Shown: positions 14,619 to 54,069 of the stretch, piece by piece
Layout of the letters: every line of letters starts with the position of its first letter
Position numbering within the stretch: position 1 is the stretch's first letter
Source of the DNA: Candidatus Peregrinibacteria bacterium
GTDB taxonomy: Bacteria; Patescibacteriota; Gracilibacteria; Peribacterales; Peribacteraceae
Assembly (NCBI GenBank): GCA_030649955.1
Contig: JAUSFD010000010.1
Span: 124,001 to 188,000, forward strand
DNA: 64,000 nt
Reading direction: 5' to 3'
Made by a program: the position numbers and the translations under genes
Notes under the pieces: model-generated
Told to the model about the DNA's origin: nothing
What the model saw: only the letters and a program-made list of their open reading frames with translations
The model's database searches: none

Positions 14619-16145
14619 TCAGTCTTGCACTCCTTTCCTGCGTTTCTCTGCCTGGCTCCTCCCGAGTTCTTCCAGCCATTCGCTCTCAAGCAAAGTACTG
14701 TGGATACCAGCAGTGTAGATTGGGGGCTTTGGCCCTATCGATCTTTTTTTGAGAGCAACTGGCGCATGATCCATCGTCGTCACAAGCGGCTGGAGTTGCT
14801 CGGGATTAGGGTTGAGGAATATCGGCGCACCCACGCAGTTGGTCATGCGCTCCTCCCACGTCTCGGAACCATTATCTCCTCTTCGGAAACGCATAGGTAC
14901 TCTCCCACTCAACTTATTGTTATGAATGCCATAGTCGAGGAAGTTGCTCGGAGGATGCTTCGAGCATCCAATCCGTTCTTTTCGTGGGTTACCTGCACCA
15001 ATAGCTCCCGCGCAGGAGAACAGAACGCCCAGCCGCTCCTCTGCGATTGCCTGTCGTACAGCTTCATTGATACCCAGCCGAGGATCGTTATAGAGCATGA
15101 GCTGGGGTCCATGCCAGCCACCGGGATAAACAATGCCATGGAGGTTCTCAATCTCCTGCCTCGTATGCACCATCTTGATGCGGATATTCATCCAGGTAAG
15201 GATTTGCTGCCGTAGTTGCTTGAGCATCCAGCGCTCCACCTTCGAGGCTCCCTGCAAATTGAGAACGCCGACACGCAGCGCTCCCTCGGGAAACTCGAGC
15301 GGCTTATCATGCGCATCAGCAATACGGGTGACACGCGCATCCCAGATCCGTTGCGCATCGCTCGGTGAAAGCGGCTCCGTCACGATGTATCCGTCACAGG
15401 GATTGCCCTCGGCGAAGTTCTGCTCATTGGCAAAGAACTGCAGAAGATTCTCAGGACTCGCCTCGAGAAGGACGCTTGGCTCGGGATGGACAACTCTAGA
15501 GGCATCAATGGAAGAGGGAAGCGCTACTCCTTTCCATTCGCTCTGGAATCGCAAGAGATCTTTCACATCTTGGAAGATGAAGCCTTCTATTTCATGTGTG
15601 AGCACTCGCTCCTTTACTTCTGGCGTGAGCGCATCATCTGCACCATTAACTCGGACAATCACCGGCTGATCGAGCACCATCCCCATCATTGTGTCTTGGG
15701 GGCTTCTGCGCGTTCCAGTTGCATGTTTTCCCTTCAATGTGTGGAGATCGCCGACGGCTTCTAGCGAAGCGATGGTGACAAGGCCCGGCCCTCCGAGACG
15801 AACTCCTTCCTCCGTATCGACCTCCTGCCCGTGATGGCGTACATAGAGCGCTCCTCGATCAATGTATTCCTGCTTCTTCCGTGGATTGAAGGTGTGGAAG
15901 ACTACGCGCTGCGCGTCACGGATGAACGCAGAGACTCGCCTGCCGGTTGCGGTCATGACGACTCCTGTCGCGTTCACAGCATCCAGCTCCTCATTCGTAG
16001 GCATCTTCGATGCCGTCAGGAGGGGCGCACCATGGGCGCACTGCACGCGCATAGTGTTTTCAAGCTTTTTCGGGGAGAGGATTTCCGATGCTCCTTCCTC
16101 GGGGTCAAAAGCGCCTCCGATGTCGATTTCGTCTGGCTCTGGCAT
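14619..16145 (-). CDS. PdxT-like glutamine amidotransferase domain with ~300-residue N-terminal region
   Basis: The start is taken at ATG 16145 (MPEPDEIDIGG), because the promoter at 16215-16187 overlaps an alternative TTG start at 16187. The C-terminal ~200 residues resemble a class I glutamine amidotransferase of the PdxT type: RVGVLNLQGASKVERWM, then GIVYPGGWHGPQLMLY, the nucleophile region VLFSCAGAIGAGNP and a C-terminal IHSTLLESE in place of the usual HPE. The first ~300 residues (for example GKHATGTRRSPQDTMMGMVL) match no family I know. No PdxS synthase gene is present, so pyridoxal phosphate synthesis is not established. Confidence 0.65.
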   Translation of the reverse strand: MPEPDEIDIGGAFDPEEGASEILSPKKLENTMRVQCAHGAPLLTASKMPTNEELDAVNATGVVMTATGRRVSAFIRDAQRVVFHTFNPRKKQEYIDRGALYVRHHGQEVDTEEGVRLGGPGLVTIASLEAVGDLHTLKGKHATGTRRSPQDTMMGMVLDQPVIVRVNGADDALTPEVKERVLTHEIEGFIFQDVKDLLRFQSEWKGVALPSSIDASRVVHPEPSVLLEASPENLLQFFANEQNFAEGNPCDGYIVTEPLSPSDAQRIWDARVTRIADAHDKPLEFPEGALRVGVLNLQGASKVERWMLKQLRQQILTWMNIRIKMVHTRQEIENLHGIVYPGGWHGPQLMLYNDPRLGINEAVRQAIAEERLGVLFSCAGAIGAGNPRKERIGCSKHPPSNFLDYGIHNNKLSGRVPMRFRRGDNGSETWEERMTNCVGAPIFLNPNPEQLQPLVTTMDHAPVALKKRSIGPKPPIYTAGIHSTLLESEWLEELGRSQAEKRRKGVQD

Positions 16146-16186
16146 AAAAAGTGCGGGCACTTTAGGGATAGATGACAAATGATGCA

Positions 16187-16215
16187 ATTGTTATTTCTTT
16201 ACCTTTCTCTGTCAA
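16187..16215 (-). promoter_or_regulatory. Promoter of PdxT-like gene
   Basis: Minus strand TTGACA (16215-16210), 17-base spacer, AACAAT (16192-16187). Between it and ATG 16145 the transcript could form a small perfect hairpin, AAAGTGC paired with GCACTTT, just before the start codon. Confidence 0.55.
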
Positions 16216-16247: not shown

Positions 16248-19200
16248 TCATGAACTCTCCTTTTCACTCTTGGAATTGATGTACTCCGCGACGACCGAGG
16301 AGCTGATGATCAGAAGGCCACCAATAAGGAGAATGATGGTTGGAACGATCCTGTTTAGGAGGAATGTTTCGACTGTAAAAGTGAGGAAGATCGAGATGTT
16401 GAACATGAGGAAGGCGAGGAAGCCGTCGATGCGACGGAATGCCTCGAAGTTCAGAATACGGCCGCAGCCGCTCAGGATTCCTGCACCGATCCCAAAGAGG
16501 ATCTGAGGGCCAGAGAGGTGCCAGACGGAACCAGCACCGAGCAGAGCGATGGGCGCAGTCACGATGAGTGAGAACAGAAAGATATTGAAATTGAGCTCCA
16601 CGCTCTTGTTGCTGGGAAGACTCTTCACGTACCGAATCATGGCGATAACGAGGAAGACATCGACAAGCATTGTGAGTGTTCCGAGAAAATCACCGTAGAC
16701 GTGTCCCTGAGTTGCAAACTTGATGTCGTTATAGAAAAGGAGGGTGCTCCCGAGACTCCCAAGGACGAAGGTCAGGAAAATTGCCGCAACGTACTTGTTC
16801 TTCTTGAGATACGGAATCGAATCTCGCCAGAGAATGGCTGCGATGATGAGCGCGATCACCGGCGCGAAGTTATTGAGTAGGATGACGTTTGTACTGGATG
16901 TATAGATCAGGCTCGAATTGATGAGGTAGGTGAAGAGGATCTCTCCGATAATCAGAATCGCAAAGAGCTTGTTATAAGGCAGCTTCCATTCTGCCTTCCG
17001 GCGTTGGAGCAGCGGGAAGATGAAGAAACCAATCAGAAGCGAAGGGACGAGCCCTCCAGCCGCCTTGAGGAAGACGCGGGTAGAGGGATCGATGGTATTC
17101 ACGAGGGTGTACTTGATGAAGAGCGGCTCGAGTCCCCAGATGATGACCGCGAGGAACCGCGCACCGTAACCGAGGATTTTCTGCCGCTTGCGCTCGACTG
17201 CCGTTATCGTGGTTGGGAGCGGTTTCACTCCATTTGGCAGCACCGCACGCCTCTGCAGGAAGATGTACAAGACCGCAAGACTTGAGAGGACGAGAAGCGT
17301 GAGGGGAAAGAAGAGAGAGAAGTTAAAGATATCTAATTGAAAGATGAGGAGTGTGGCCGCAAGCAGACTGATCACGAGTGCATTCACGCCGAAGACGAGG
17401 AAGATGAACCAGCGGCTGCTGCGTACGAGCGGCAGATAATTGGAGACGAAGCGGTACGCGACAAAATGCCCAAACAGCACTGGCACGACGGCAAGGTAGT
17501 TGAGAAGCGAGTGTTCACCGAGTCCAATGATCCTACTGAGAGAGAAGAGGTAAATTGCCCACATGACTCCGGCAAACGCGAGTACCGTCGCCAATTGCTT
17601 CTTAAGCGACGGCGGCATAAGAGGAATCACCGCCGACACCTGCTCTTGATCGCGCAAGGCAAGGAAGAAGGCATCGAGATTGCCTTTATCGTCAGACTGT
17701 ATCTGTAACCTCGCTTCGAACATGAGACCGTCCGCCTGCGTGAGCGAGAATCGCTGCGAGGCGATGGCATACTTCTTGCAAAGCATCCTCACGGTCTCTT
17801 GAATGGTATGACTTCCGCTTTCCTGTCCACGCACCTTGAGCCGCAGCGAAGAATCTGACGGGAAGAACTTCTCTCGGAGACGCTCCAGAAACAGCCGTGG
17901 TCGCTGCACTCCTCCTGTGTCGCTTATCTGTGTAAGAACCTCCGAAGGAAGAACAAGCCCCTCTGCAGCAAGGATGCAGAGTTCCTCGAAGCTCTCCACT
18001 CTAAAGCGTCGGATGACTGTGGTGTTTGCTGAAAGTTTTGCGGAAACCTCGCCCCGTCCGTAGCGGTCGAACTCGGTCTGGAGGAGGACTTGGCCAAGCG
18101 AAATCTTCGCTCCTCTTTCTTCCCTCTTCAGGAATGATTGCAGTTTAAGCCGCGCCTGCGTTGTGTAGAGATACGGCATCCAGTGGATTGTTGCCGTGAT
18201 GTCATCCGCGAACACAGGCTTGATCACATCGTTCTGCTCAAGTTCGTAGTAGAAGGCAGCGGGTTTCCCATTCACAAGCACACTCTCGACCTTCAGTGCT
18301 TTCTCGGGAAAGAGGAGGAAAATGGCATCGAGAGCACTGGAAGAAGAGGGTACGTATGTCTTTCCTCCCTCATGATGAATGAGGATCTTCTCCGCAAGCA
18401 TGTCCCCTTGGATCGCTTCGATGAAGCGGCTCGATTCCTTGCGAGTAGCGCGGTCGATTGTACGGAGGTGCTGAAAGAATGAGTGAAGATGTGCTGCATC
18501 GTTGAGATCGAGTGCGATGCCCTGCATGTTCCGCTCGTCCATCTCTTTGGTGAGAATATGGAAGCGAACGGCAAAGCTCCCATCCACAATCATAGATGTG
18601 TGGAGTGCTCGGTAGCCGTTGTCTTTGGACGAGGTGGTGTAATCTTTGAGTTCTCGGGTTTTGGAGGTGTAGAGGCGACCGAGTTTTGTCAGCACGCGAT
18701 AGCAGTCCTCCTCGGAAGGGACGACCAGTTTCACAAAGAACGTCTCCTCGGGACTGATCTGCTTTCCATTCCGAGCGTAGAGCCATGGAAGATCGTAATT
18801 CTGTTTCGTGACTGAGAGAATTTCTGCTGAGGAGAAGTGCCCCCTCACTGTTGCGGAAATTGAAGAGAACATCTCCACTGCGTCCTCCTTGTGCTCTTCT
18901 GTCTGGATCTGCAGTTGCTTTGCCTCTGCAGGATACAAGAAAGTAAAACAACTCTCTTCCAGATGCGTTTTCAGCTCCCAAAGACCGAGACGGGCTGCAA
19001 CCGGCACGAAGATATCCAGTGTCTCCTGCGCTTTCCTCCGCCTCTTCTCCTCATCTTTCTTCGTCTCTAAGGTGATGATGTTATGAAGCCGGTCCGCGAG
19101 CTTGATGAGAATGATGCGCACGTCCTTTTCCGCATGGCGAAACATTTTACGGATTGTTTCCTCGTTGGCGGTGAGCGTGCTGTCATCAGGGTACTCTTTA

Positions 19201-19568
19201 CTGATCTTACTGACGCCCTCGATGAGTGAAGCCACATTTTCACCGAACTCACGCCGCACGTCCGAGCGCACCGTTCTATCATTACTGTCTTCGAATGCAT
19301 CGTGAAGTATGGTGGCGATGAGTGTGTCTCTATCGGGATGATACGGAAGCAAAAGCCAAGCAACGATCAGGGGGTGTGTTAGGTAAGGAGCACCACTCTC
19401 ACGGACCTGCTCGGCATGGATTTTCTTCCCGAATTCGAAGGCCTGCCGAAGGAGATCGGTGGGTTCCTCGGAATGCTCTTTGAATCCATGAAAAAGCTTC
19501 TGTAGCAAAGCCTCAGGGGATTCTTTCTCGAATCCGAGTACCATCGAAGGAAAGAGGCCAGGGGACAT
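16248..19568 (-). CDS. RSH (RelA/SpoT-type) ppGpp hydrolase fused to EamA-type transporter domain
   Basis: The start chosen is ATG 19568, since a longer frame would run through the integrase gene. The 1106-residue protein has an HD hydrolase domain (His65, HDAFED at 89-94, LADRLHN at 157-163), all expected catalytic positions. A RelA/SpoT synthetase-like domain follows with KDYTTSSKDNGYRALHT near 308-324, but the catalytic Asp and the Glu of the VEIQIRT motif are replaced (EETFFVKLV, FAVRFHILT). A TGS-like segment (VLVNGK, YELEQND) sits near 430-450 and an ACT-like region near 590-660. From about 690 to the end there are roughly 14 TM segments, including a ten-helix EamA/DMT unit. It is probably a membrane-tethered alarmone hydrolase. 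Confidence 0.85.
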   Translation of the reverse strand: MSPGLFPSMVLGFEKESPEALLQKLFHGFKEHSEEPTDLLRQAFEFGKKIHAEQVRESGAPYLTHPLIVAWLLLPYHPDRDTLIATILHDAFEDSNDRTVRSDVRREFGENVASLIEGVSKISKEYPDDSTLTANEETIRKMFRHAEKDVRIILIKLADRLHNIITLETKKDEEKRRRKAQETLDIFVPVAARLGLWELKTHLEESCFTFLYPAEAKQLQIQTEEHKEDAVEMFSSISATVRGHFSSAEILSVTKQNYDLPWLYARNGKQISPEETFFVKLVVPSEEDCYRVLTKLGRLYTSKTRELKDYTTSSKDNGYRALHTSMIVDGSFAVRFHILTKEMDERNMQGIALDLNDAAHLHSFFQHLRTIDRATRKESSRFIEAIQGDMLAEKILIHHEGGKTYVPSSSSALDAIFLLFPEKALKVESVLVNGKPAAFYYELEQNDVIKPVFADDITATIHWMPYLYTTQARLKLQSFLKREERGAKISLGQVLLQTEFDRYGRGEVSAKLSANTTVIRRFRVESFEELCILAAEGLVLPSEVLTQISDTGGVQRPRLFLERLREKFFPSDSSLRLKVRGQESGSHTIQETVRMLCKKYAIASQRFSLTQADGLMFEARLQIQSDDKGNLDAFFLALRDQEQVSAVIPLMPPSLKKQLATVLAFAGVMWAIYLFSLSRIIGLGEHSLLNYLAVVPVLFGHFVAYRFVSNYLPLVRSSRWFIFLVFGVNALVISLLAATLLIFQLDIFNFSLFFPLTLLVLSSLAVLYIFLQRRAVLPNGVKPLPTTITAVERKRQKILGYGARFLAVIIWGLEPLFIKYTLVNTIDPSTRVFLKAAGGLVPSLLIGFFIFPLLQRRKAEWKLPYNKLFAILIIGEILFTYLINSSLIYTSSTNVILLNNFAPVIALIIAAILWRDSIPYLKKNKYVAAIFLTFVLGSLGSTLLFYNDIKFATQGHVYGDFLGTLTMLVDVFLVIAMIRYVKSLPSNKSVELNFNIFLFSLIVTAPIALLGAGSVWHLSGPQILFGIGAGILSGCGRILNFEAFRRIDGFLAFLMFNISIFLTFTVETFLLNRIVPTIILLIGGLLIISSSVVAEYINSKSEKESS

Positions 19569-19651: not shown

Positions 19652-20569
19652 CTATACCCGAATCGGCTGCATCATGACGGCATGATTCTTGAGACGCTCG
19701 AGATTGTGGAAGTAGCGCTGTGTGGTGGCGGGGTTCATATGTCGTGCGAAGTCCTGCGCTGCAATGAGTGTTGCTCCACCGTTGATGAGGTGGGTGATCG
19801 AGGAATGACGCAGTGAGTGTGTGCTTACGTGCGGACGGTCGATACCAAGCTGCTTGAGTCGCGTCTTCACCATGTGTTGTACATTGCGCCGCGCAATGCG
19901 GTCTTTGGCTCGGTGTGTTGTTCCGACAAACATAGAATTTTCTTCCTCCACACGGCCGCGTGTTTTGAGGTATGTCTGAATGACTCCCCGCACATCGTCG
20001 CGGATGCGAGTGTCGATGGTCTTCCCGCCTTTCCCTCGTACCCGCAGCACCCAACAACCCTCTGTCTGTACGAGATCTCCGACATTCGCTCGTGTGATCT
20101 CGCAGACGCGAAGCCCGTTGATGAGGAGGAGCGCCATGATCGCCTTGTCTCTCTTGCCACGGATAGTGTCTGTTTCAATCGATCCAAGGAGCCGGTTACA
20201 GTCTGCAAGACTCAGAATTTCCCGCGTGGTCTCGTTGGTTGTCTTCGGCAGCTTGAGACCGGCCGAGGGGTTCGTTGGGATCACTCCCTGTTCGTAGAGG
20301 AAGGTGAAGAGACGACGGATAACGGTGAGTTTCTTCGAAATTGTAATCGGTTTCAGTCCTCTGGCGTCGAGGCTTTCTCTGTACCCCAAGAGATCCTGCA
20401 ATGAGATATGCGCGGCCTTCTTCCCGACAGCGCGATAGAACAATGCGATTTCCATCCGATAATTGTGTTTCGTGTTGAAGCAGGACTGATTGCGGATGAA
20501 AGACATGATCTCTGTGACGGAAGGATCCCGAATGGGCAGTGCCGTTGGTAATATCGTTAGTTCCCGCAT
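19652..20569 (-). CDS. Tyrosine recombinase (XerC/D-like integrase)
   Basis: The 305-residue protein has the N-terminal SAM-like core-binding domain and a catalytic domain with all residues visible: Arg in LLINGLRVCEIT, Lys in RGKGGKT, His-x-x-Arg in THSLRHSSI, the second His in FARHMNPATTQRYFHN, and the nucleophilic Tyr in that same segment. It should catalyse site-specific strand exchange. It is divergent from an excisionase-like HTH gene, with paired repeats between them, which suggests an integrative cassette, not the housekeeping Xer system. Its 3' end lies at hairpin repeat R3. Confidence 0.92.
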   Translation of the reverse strand: MRELTILPTALPIRDPSVTEIMSFIRNQSCFNTKHNYRMEIALFYRAVGKKAAHISLQDLLGYRESLDARGLKPITISKKLTVIRRLFTFLYEQGVIPTNPSAGLKLPKTTNETTREILSLADCNRLLGSIETDTIRGKRDKAIMALLLINGLRVCEITRANVGDLVQTEGCWVLRVRGKGGKTIDTRIRDDVRGVIQTYLKTRGRVEEENSMFVGTTHRAKDRIARRNVQHMVKTRLKQLGIDRPHVSTHSLRHSSITHLINGGATLIAAQDFARHMNPATTQRYFHNLERLKNHAVMMQPIRV

Positions 20570-53181: not shown

Positions 53182-54069
53182 TCAACTAAATTTAGCTAGC
53201 ATTCCAAGTCCTATAGACATCACTAATATTAGCAATATTTTTCGACTAAAGTTATCAGTTCGTGCAAAACCTTCTTCACTAAATTTTGGTGAAAAGCTCA
53301 GAGAGAAGCACATTATGAATACTATTGCAGGGTAAGTACTCATTACAGAAGTGACAAGCGCGGGGTGGCCAATACTAAGTGCATAAGTTCCTGCAATCAA
53401 AGCTAGTACATTTCCGATTTCAATAAGACTTAAATGCGGGAGAATGTTTTTTATTTTATGCCAATTAAGTAAAAAACTTATTCTTTCTTTCTTACTTAAA
53501 ATAAAAGGAGAAAGTCCAAACAGCACAATCCCAATGCTGTAAGGAGCATAGAAAGATAAGAAGGGTATTCCTTTTAATGTGTAATTTACTAGAATTCCAT
53601 GAGCTGAAAGAAAAATTATGTCTGCAGCAATAAAGATAAAGAACTTTGCATCCCAGCAGATCTTTCTATTAATTGTAAGTCCAAGAATGGCACTTACAAC
53701 AATAAGTATTCCAACAATCTCGGAAAGTTTTAAGAAATGACCAAGATAAATAGAAATAATTGCAACAAGAACTGGATAAGTACTTTCAATGGCGCTTAAA
53801 TCGCCCGCCTCTTCTGCATACCCCATGGATACGAAATAGCATGCCTGCGCAGCTTGCAGAAAAATACCTGATAGCAAAGACAGAAGAAAAATTCTAGGAC
53901 TTGGCCATGTGACTATTGGGGACACTGCAATAAGTAATGCAATTGATGCTGGCACTGTCATAAACATGCCCTGCAATGGCCTAGTAAAAACACCGACAAT
54001 TGTGAACCTGTCAAAAACTATTACGATCGAAAGCAGCAGTGCATATGTAAATGCAAACAGAAACCACAT
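53182..54069 (-). CDS. EamA/DMT-family transporter
   Basis: The 295-residue protein has about ten TM segments in the two five-helix halves of the EamA (drug/metabolite transporter) family; the first half has the usual GYAEEAGDLSAIESTYPVLV motif and the second half GTYALSIGHPALVTSVMSTY. It is AT-rich. It is 37 bases downstream of the DHS/SpeD-like gene on the same strand, so it may share its transcript and could export or import a polyamine or amino acid. That link is inference from context. Confidence 0.82.
   Translation of the reverse strand: MWFLFAFTYALLLSIVIVFDRFTIVGVFTRPLQGMFMTVPASIALLIAVSPIVTWPSPRIFLLSLLSGIFLQAAQACYFVSMGYAEEAGDLSAIESTYPVLVAIISIYLGHFLKLSEIVGILIVVSAILGLTINRKICWDAKFFIFIAADIIFLSAHGILVNYTLKGIPFLSFYAPYSIGIVLFGLSPFILSKKERISFLLNWHKIKNILPHLSLIEIGNVLALIAGTYALSIGHPALVTSVMSTYPAIVFIMCFSLSFSPKFSEEGFARTDNFSRKILLILVMSIGLGMLAKFS

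Follow-up and report, generated by a model that had tools for sequence, protein, structure and literature searches.

A predicted hydrolase-type RSH protein fused to an EamA/DMT transporter-fold unit in the bacterial order Peribacterales

Long RSH proteins confined to the hydrolysis of the starvation signal (p)ppGpp are already known, as exemplified by Acinetobacter SpoT. The protein from A. baumannii (PMC9974481; structure 7qpr) combines an active HD domain with a pseudo-synthetase domain and acts next to a separate synthetase; its C-terminal domains stimulate the HD domain by way of the Core and the TGS domain. It is soluble, contains a zinc finger and an RRM/ACT domain and has no transmembrane (TM) helices. 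The Rel proteins of S. aureus and B. subtilis (7oiw and 6yxa, respectively) are bifunctional and soluble. Arabidopsis RSH1 (PMC5633626), also a long RSH, has a putative C-terminal TM region that was proposed to serve as a membrane anchor. However, this region comprises two putative helices only, and the protein localizes to the chloroplast and carries no transporter fold. Conversely, YddG (5i20) and LicB (7paf, 7b0k) display the complete ten-TM fold of the DMT superfamily, but are stand-alone proteins. Our searches of the open-access literature yielded no description of a DMT-fused RSH or of another polytopic bacterial RSH.

The window, i.e., the whole stretch of 64,000 nucleotides analysed here, contains a gene whose product resembles A. 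baumannii SpoT in its predicted pairing of an active HD domain with a pseudo-synthetase, in its separate synthetase partner and in a structural model that aligns with 7qpr. However, it stems from an unrelated lineage, lacks the zinc-finger CC motif after its helical region and adds a four-TM block and an EamA unit. The frame translates to 1106 aa with no internal stop, in agreement with the earlier note, which had proposed a single frame joining RSH and membrane parts. Its domains follow each other in the order HD, degenerate synthetase, TGS, helical region, ACT-like, four TM helices and ten-TM EamA/DMT unit:

16248-19568, minus strand: whole gene, 1106-aa predicted RSH hydrolase with four-TM block and EamA unit (type A fusion, see below); from the open frame, Pfam, homologues and model
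18978-19442, minus strand: HD hydrolase domain, aa 43-197; from HD_4 (E 2.3e-35) and the residue check
18489-18836, minus strand: degenerate synthetase domain, aa 245-360; from RelA_SpoT (36.3 bits at aa 279-354), catalytic residues gone
18204-18395, minus strand: TGS-like beta-grasp, aa 392-455; from the model and the B. subtilis Rel alignment
17919-18197, minus strand: helical region, aa 458-550; from the model and a RelA_AH_RIS match in homologues, with no zinc-finger CC motif after it
17613-17855, minus strand: ACT-like fold, aa 572-652; beta-alpha-beta-beta-alpha-beta in the model
17241-17612, minus strand: four-TM block, aa 653-776; from hydropathy and the model at low confidence
16254-17201, minus strand: EamA/DMT unit with ten TM helices, aa 790-1105; from Pfam, structure matches and a separate model

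The frame stays open upstream to 20057, where it would overlap a phage-integrase-family gene at 19652-20569, and homologues align from about aa 20-40 onward only. Thus, a start near 19568 is reasonable. The gene directly downstream of the fusion (window 14619-16187, minus strand) encodes a protein whose C-terminal half is weakly similar to PdxT glutaminase (E 6e-4); a Pfam search of this product gave no match. At 7 of 16 other loci, the type A fusion likewise has a relative of this gene beside it. Elsewhere in the window, another EamA-like match (53674-54069, minus strand) lies in a 296-aa frame and scores under the Pfam cut-off.

We favour the reading, with a probability of roughly 0.55, that the protein would be a hydrolase-only long RSH that is anchored in the membrane, is probably tuned via its transporter-fold module and is paired with a soluble, probably ribosome-linked synthetase. 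This explanation draws on metagenome assemblies of tiny uncultured bacteria, by way of sequence and prediction. Points against it are the 20 hydrolase-type proteins of the order that have no TM helices, the low conservation of the type B EamA unit, and the weak conservation and low-confidence modelling of the ACT-like and four-TM parts. Its starting points, read directly from the sequences, are the architecture, the kept and lost catalytic residues, the partition of RSH types across the order and the topology signal.

Within the catalytic half, Pfam HD_4 matched aa 43-197 with 122.1 bits (cut-off 27.2) and RelA_SpoT matched aa 279-354 with an E-value of 7.6e-9 (cut-off 27 bits), while the NCBIfam model TIGR00691 (spoT_relA) aligned to aa 43-545 with 329 bits, under its cut-off of 499.2. 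Alignment with other RSHs revealed equivalents of all eight RelSeq HD residues that were checked (R44, H53, H77, D78, E81, D82, D144 and N148). The synthetase RxKxxYS loop (R241/K243/S247), by contrast, is absent; at the D264 position the residue is E or T, according to which alignment is used, and R occupies the E323 position. The RelSeq numbering of all of these residues was transferred to the protein by motif. The expectation of intact HD catalytic residues next to replaced synthetase Asp and Glu positions was therefore borne out, with the loss of the loop in addition, and the protein lacks the synthetase catalytic residues that define a bifunctional Rel/SpoT. Most other type A members keep the Glu and some keep the Asp, but the nucleotide-binding loop is gone; within type A, loop loss is thus a more general mark of a putatively dead synthetase than Asp/Glu replacement. 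The closest structures to the catalytic half of the model are S. aureus Rel (7oiw; Z 34.0, r.m.s.d. 1.9 over 321 residues) and B. subtilis Rel (6yxa; Z 33.9), both of them bifunctional. Judging from the residue pattern, a hydrolase-only long RSH similar to Acinetobacter SpoT is the best reading of the protein, with hydrolysis as its predicted activity.

The region between the catalytic and the membrane half was assigned from the AlphaFold2 model. A TGS-like beta-grasp is formed at approximately aa 394-453, and the alignment to B. subtilis Rel continues through aa 501; together, these two observations identify the TGS domain. An ACT-like fold at aa 574-650 is recognizable by its secondary structure in a part of the model that has low confidence. 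Hence, the proposed TGS- and ACT-like parts are both seen as folds in the model, but Pfam reported neither a TGS nor an ACT match in the 1106-aa protein.

To describe the RSH repertoire of the order, we classified 148 RSH proteins from 72 Peribacterales genomes by eight HD and twelve synthetase residues, with TM helices estimated from approximate hydropathy. In hydrolase-type proteins (73 of 148), all eight HD residues are present and the synthetase site is gone. Synthetase-type proteins (71 of 148) have lost the HD residues, possess all twelve synthetase residues and are all soluble. The other four are fragments, and not a single bifunctional RSH was found among the 148 classified proteins. 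By hydropathy, 53 of the 73 hydrolase-type proteins have at least three TM helices and 20 have none, and all 53 classified membrane-fused RSHs, which occur in 46 of the 72 genomes, fall on the hydrolase side. A zinc-finger CC motif is present in 61/73 synthetase-side rows and 0/73 hydrolase-side rows, a split made on the HD motif alone, by which fragments count as synthetase-side. The soluble synthetase-side partner is probably ribosome-linked. Eight genomes were checked because the hydrolase-type protein was missing or fragmentary; in seven of them, HD_4 frames were present besides the synthetase-type protein, several being partial or small. G025 (81% complete) had no HD_4 frame besides its synthetase-type protein. 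In the wider class this partner rule is looser: in one genome (G281), an RSH that carries a TM tail is bifunctional, and in another (G099) the partner RSH of the fusion has a nearly intact HD site.

The fusions come in two types, namely type A (~1100 aa), to which the protein of the window belongs, and the shorter type B (~920 aa), which is devoid of the four-TM block. The full-length AlphaFold2 model of the type A protein (mean pLDDT 74, pTM 0.45, 15 sequences) does not fix the relative placement of the two halves. It shows four TM helices at aa 653-776 and ten at aa 790-1105, amounting to 14. Pfam EamA matched in two stretches, the better one at aa 800-919 (E 1.1e-9, 39.1 bits, cut-off 28.2), and the unit modelled alone reached a pLDDT of 84.5 and a pTM of 0.84. 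This model matches chains A-E of 5i20 with a TMt of 0.76-0.82, and the C-terminal half superposes with YddG (Z 25.4, r.m.s.d. 3.2 over 276 residues) and LicB (7paf, 7b0k; Z 24.1). Profile, two repeats and ten TM helices thus place the unit in the EamA/DMT superfamily, and the roughly 14 TM helices with a DMT/EamA unit that the earlier note had counted are supported by Pfam, the model and the YddG match. The loops contain ten K+R residues on the inner side and one on the outer side. This positive-inside pattern is consistent with a cytosolic location of both termini and the RSH part.

Mean pairwise identity within type A amounts to 54% for HD, 46% for EamA and 39% for the degenerate synthetase; ACT and 4TM stand at 29%. 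The EamA units of this type share invariant charged and polar residues inside their TM helices. Identity of the EamA unit within type B is only 28%, compared with 51% for the degenerate synthetase. From these differences, we read the type A EamA as a unit that has putatively retained a solute-specific function, and that of type B as a possible anchor or a unit of drifting specificity.

It is unlikely, in our estimate, that the EamA and four-TM parts do no more than anchor the hydrolase in the membrane, with no solute being sensed or moved. The poor conservation of type B EamA would fit such an anchor, as would the soluble hydrolase-type proteins that stand in for the fusion in some genomes; the 20 hydrolase-type proteins of the order without TM helices suggest that the membrane part is dispensable for the hydrolase role. 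Furthermore, bifunctional long RSHs are frequent in the class and often end in a four-TM block alone, so that the premise of the earlier note that RSH proteins are normally soluble fails here. Nevertheless, type A EamA is a complete ten-TM DMT fold, nearly as conserved as HD, and its invariant charged and polar TM residues argue against a mere anchor. Among further long RSHs that end in a TM block of about four helices (L172-L183, L109, L124), most keep both catalytic sites. Another bifunctional-looking RSH with four TM helices (L136:1806-5114, plus strand) carries an extra C-terminal part, whose CGPEPG stretch points to a methyltransferase-like fold.

Control could also run in reverse, with (p)ppGpp on the HD or the degenerate synthetase domain gating the transporter and hydrolysis resetting it. 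We regard this as rather improbable. The retention of the degenerate synthetase domain in both types and the presence of both parts in a single chain would agree with it. However, the degenerate domain is only a putative nucleotide binder, and the synthetase-side RSH needs a hydrolase partner; in most genomes of the order, no hydrolase-type RSH other than the fused type was found.

A search of 74 Peribacterales genomes for the same architecture identified full-length type A fusions in 13, i.e., that of the window and 12 others, and type B in many more. The genome of the window (G000) encodes one type A protein, one type B protein (922 aa, on contig C20) and a soluble RSH on C11. Most of the named records that contain the type A fusion are MAGs of Peribacterales/Peregrinibacteria. 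Full-length fusions also occur outside the order in five families of the same class (f5, f6, f15, f21 and f31). Outside the class, there was none among the matches listed from about 220 other genomes of the phylum, where the longest RSH frame listed had 753 aa. One fusion filed under Lloydbacteria (L148) was rejected: its contig is probably mis-binned, as the protein matches Peribacteria L017/L145 and carries a run of N. Separate-gene homologues, a frameshift or an assembly join were looked for and not found; within the order, type A EamA was encountered only fused, and where short frames occur (G016, G017, G064 and G065), they are located at the ends of contigs. A chimaera of two genes joined through an assembly error or a missed stop can be dismissed, since the unbroken frame sits inside a long contig, the 12 other genomes and independent named records share the full-length architecture, and the genome of the window harbours a second fusion; the fusion is real.

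In a tree of the catalytic region, built by a quick method and with many open forks, most fusions stand apart from the synthetase-type and bifunctional proteins. One protein (L007) combines a type B catalytic half with a type A membrane half that is 66% identical to the EamA unit of the window, which implies that halves have been exchanged between paralogues. A common origin of the type A and type B EamA units was considered and rejected: in the EamA tree, whose rooting is unsure, they belong to separate clades, between which stand-alone transporters from the same genomes are placed. A stand-alone EamA on a contig filed as Gammaproteobacteria (L150:5252-6199, plus strand) is 47% identical to the fused unit and nests inside the type A clade.

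In the hydrolase-only reading that we favour, (p)ppGpp would be made, probably on ribosomes, by the soluble RSH, which usually bears a zinc finger and combines a dead HD domain with an intact synthetase; the fused RSH-EamA protein would remove it on the inner side of the membrane. The unit with the transporter fold would most likely bind or move a small solute and relay its own state by way of the ACT-like part, the helical region and TGS to the HD site; the rate of hydrolysis would then track solute supply. By analogy with the C-terminal stimulation of A. baumannii SpoT, the ACT-like domain could relay the state of EamA to HD. In Ca. P. riflensis, genes for amino acid biosynthesis are few (PMC4736985), which renders uptake-linked control plausible. 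More generally, and with somewhat less than even odds, the fusions might represent a device of mutual control, built as one chain from an alarmone hydrolase and a DMT transporter or transceptor. Solute traffic would then directly set the removal of (p)ppGpp, or the alarmone would set transport, and two different EamA subfamilies would have been joined to hydrolase-type RSHs within one class.

If true, the fusion would tie a membrane transporter fold physically and directly to the stringent response, in bacteria that possess few genes for amino acid biosynthesis. Across an order far from the Proteobacteria, the synthesis of (p)ppGpp would be completely separated from its hydrolysis. With the fusion, the way in which alarmone levels are set by nutrient supply at the membrane becomes open to testing. 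Taken together, removal of the signal in Peribacterales appears to be tied to the membrane, and the signal-making parts sit in a separate, soluble protein.
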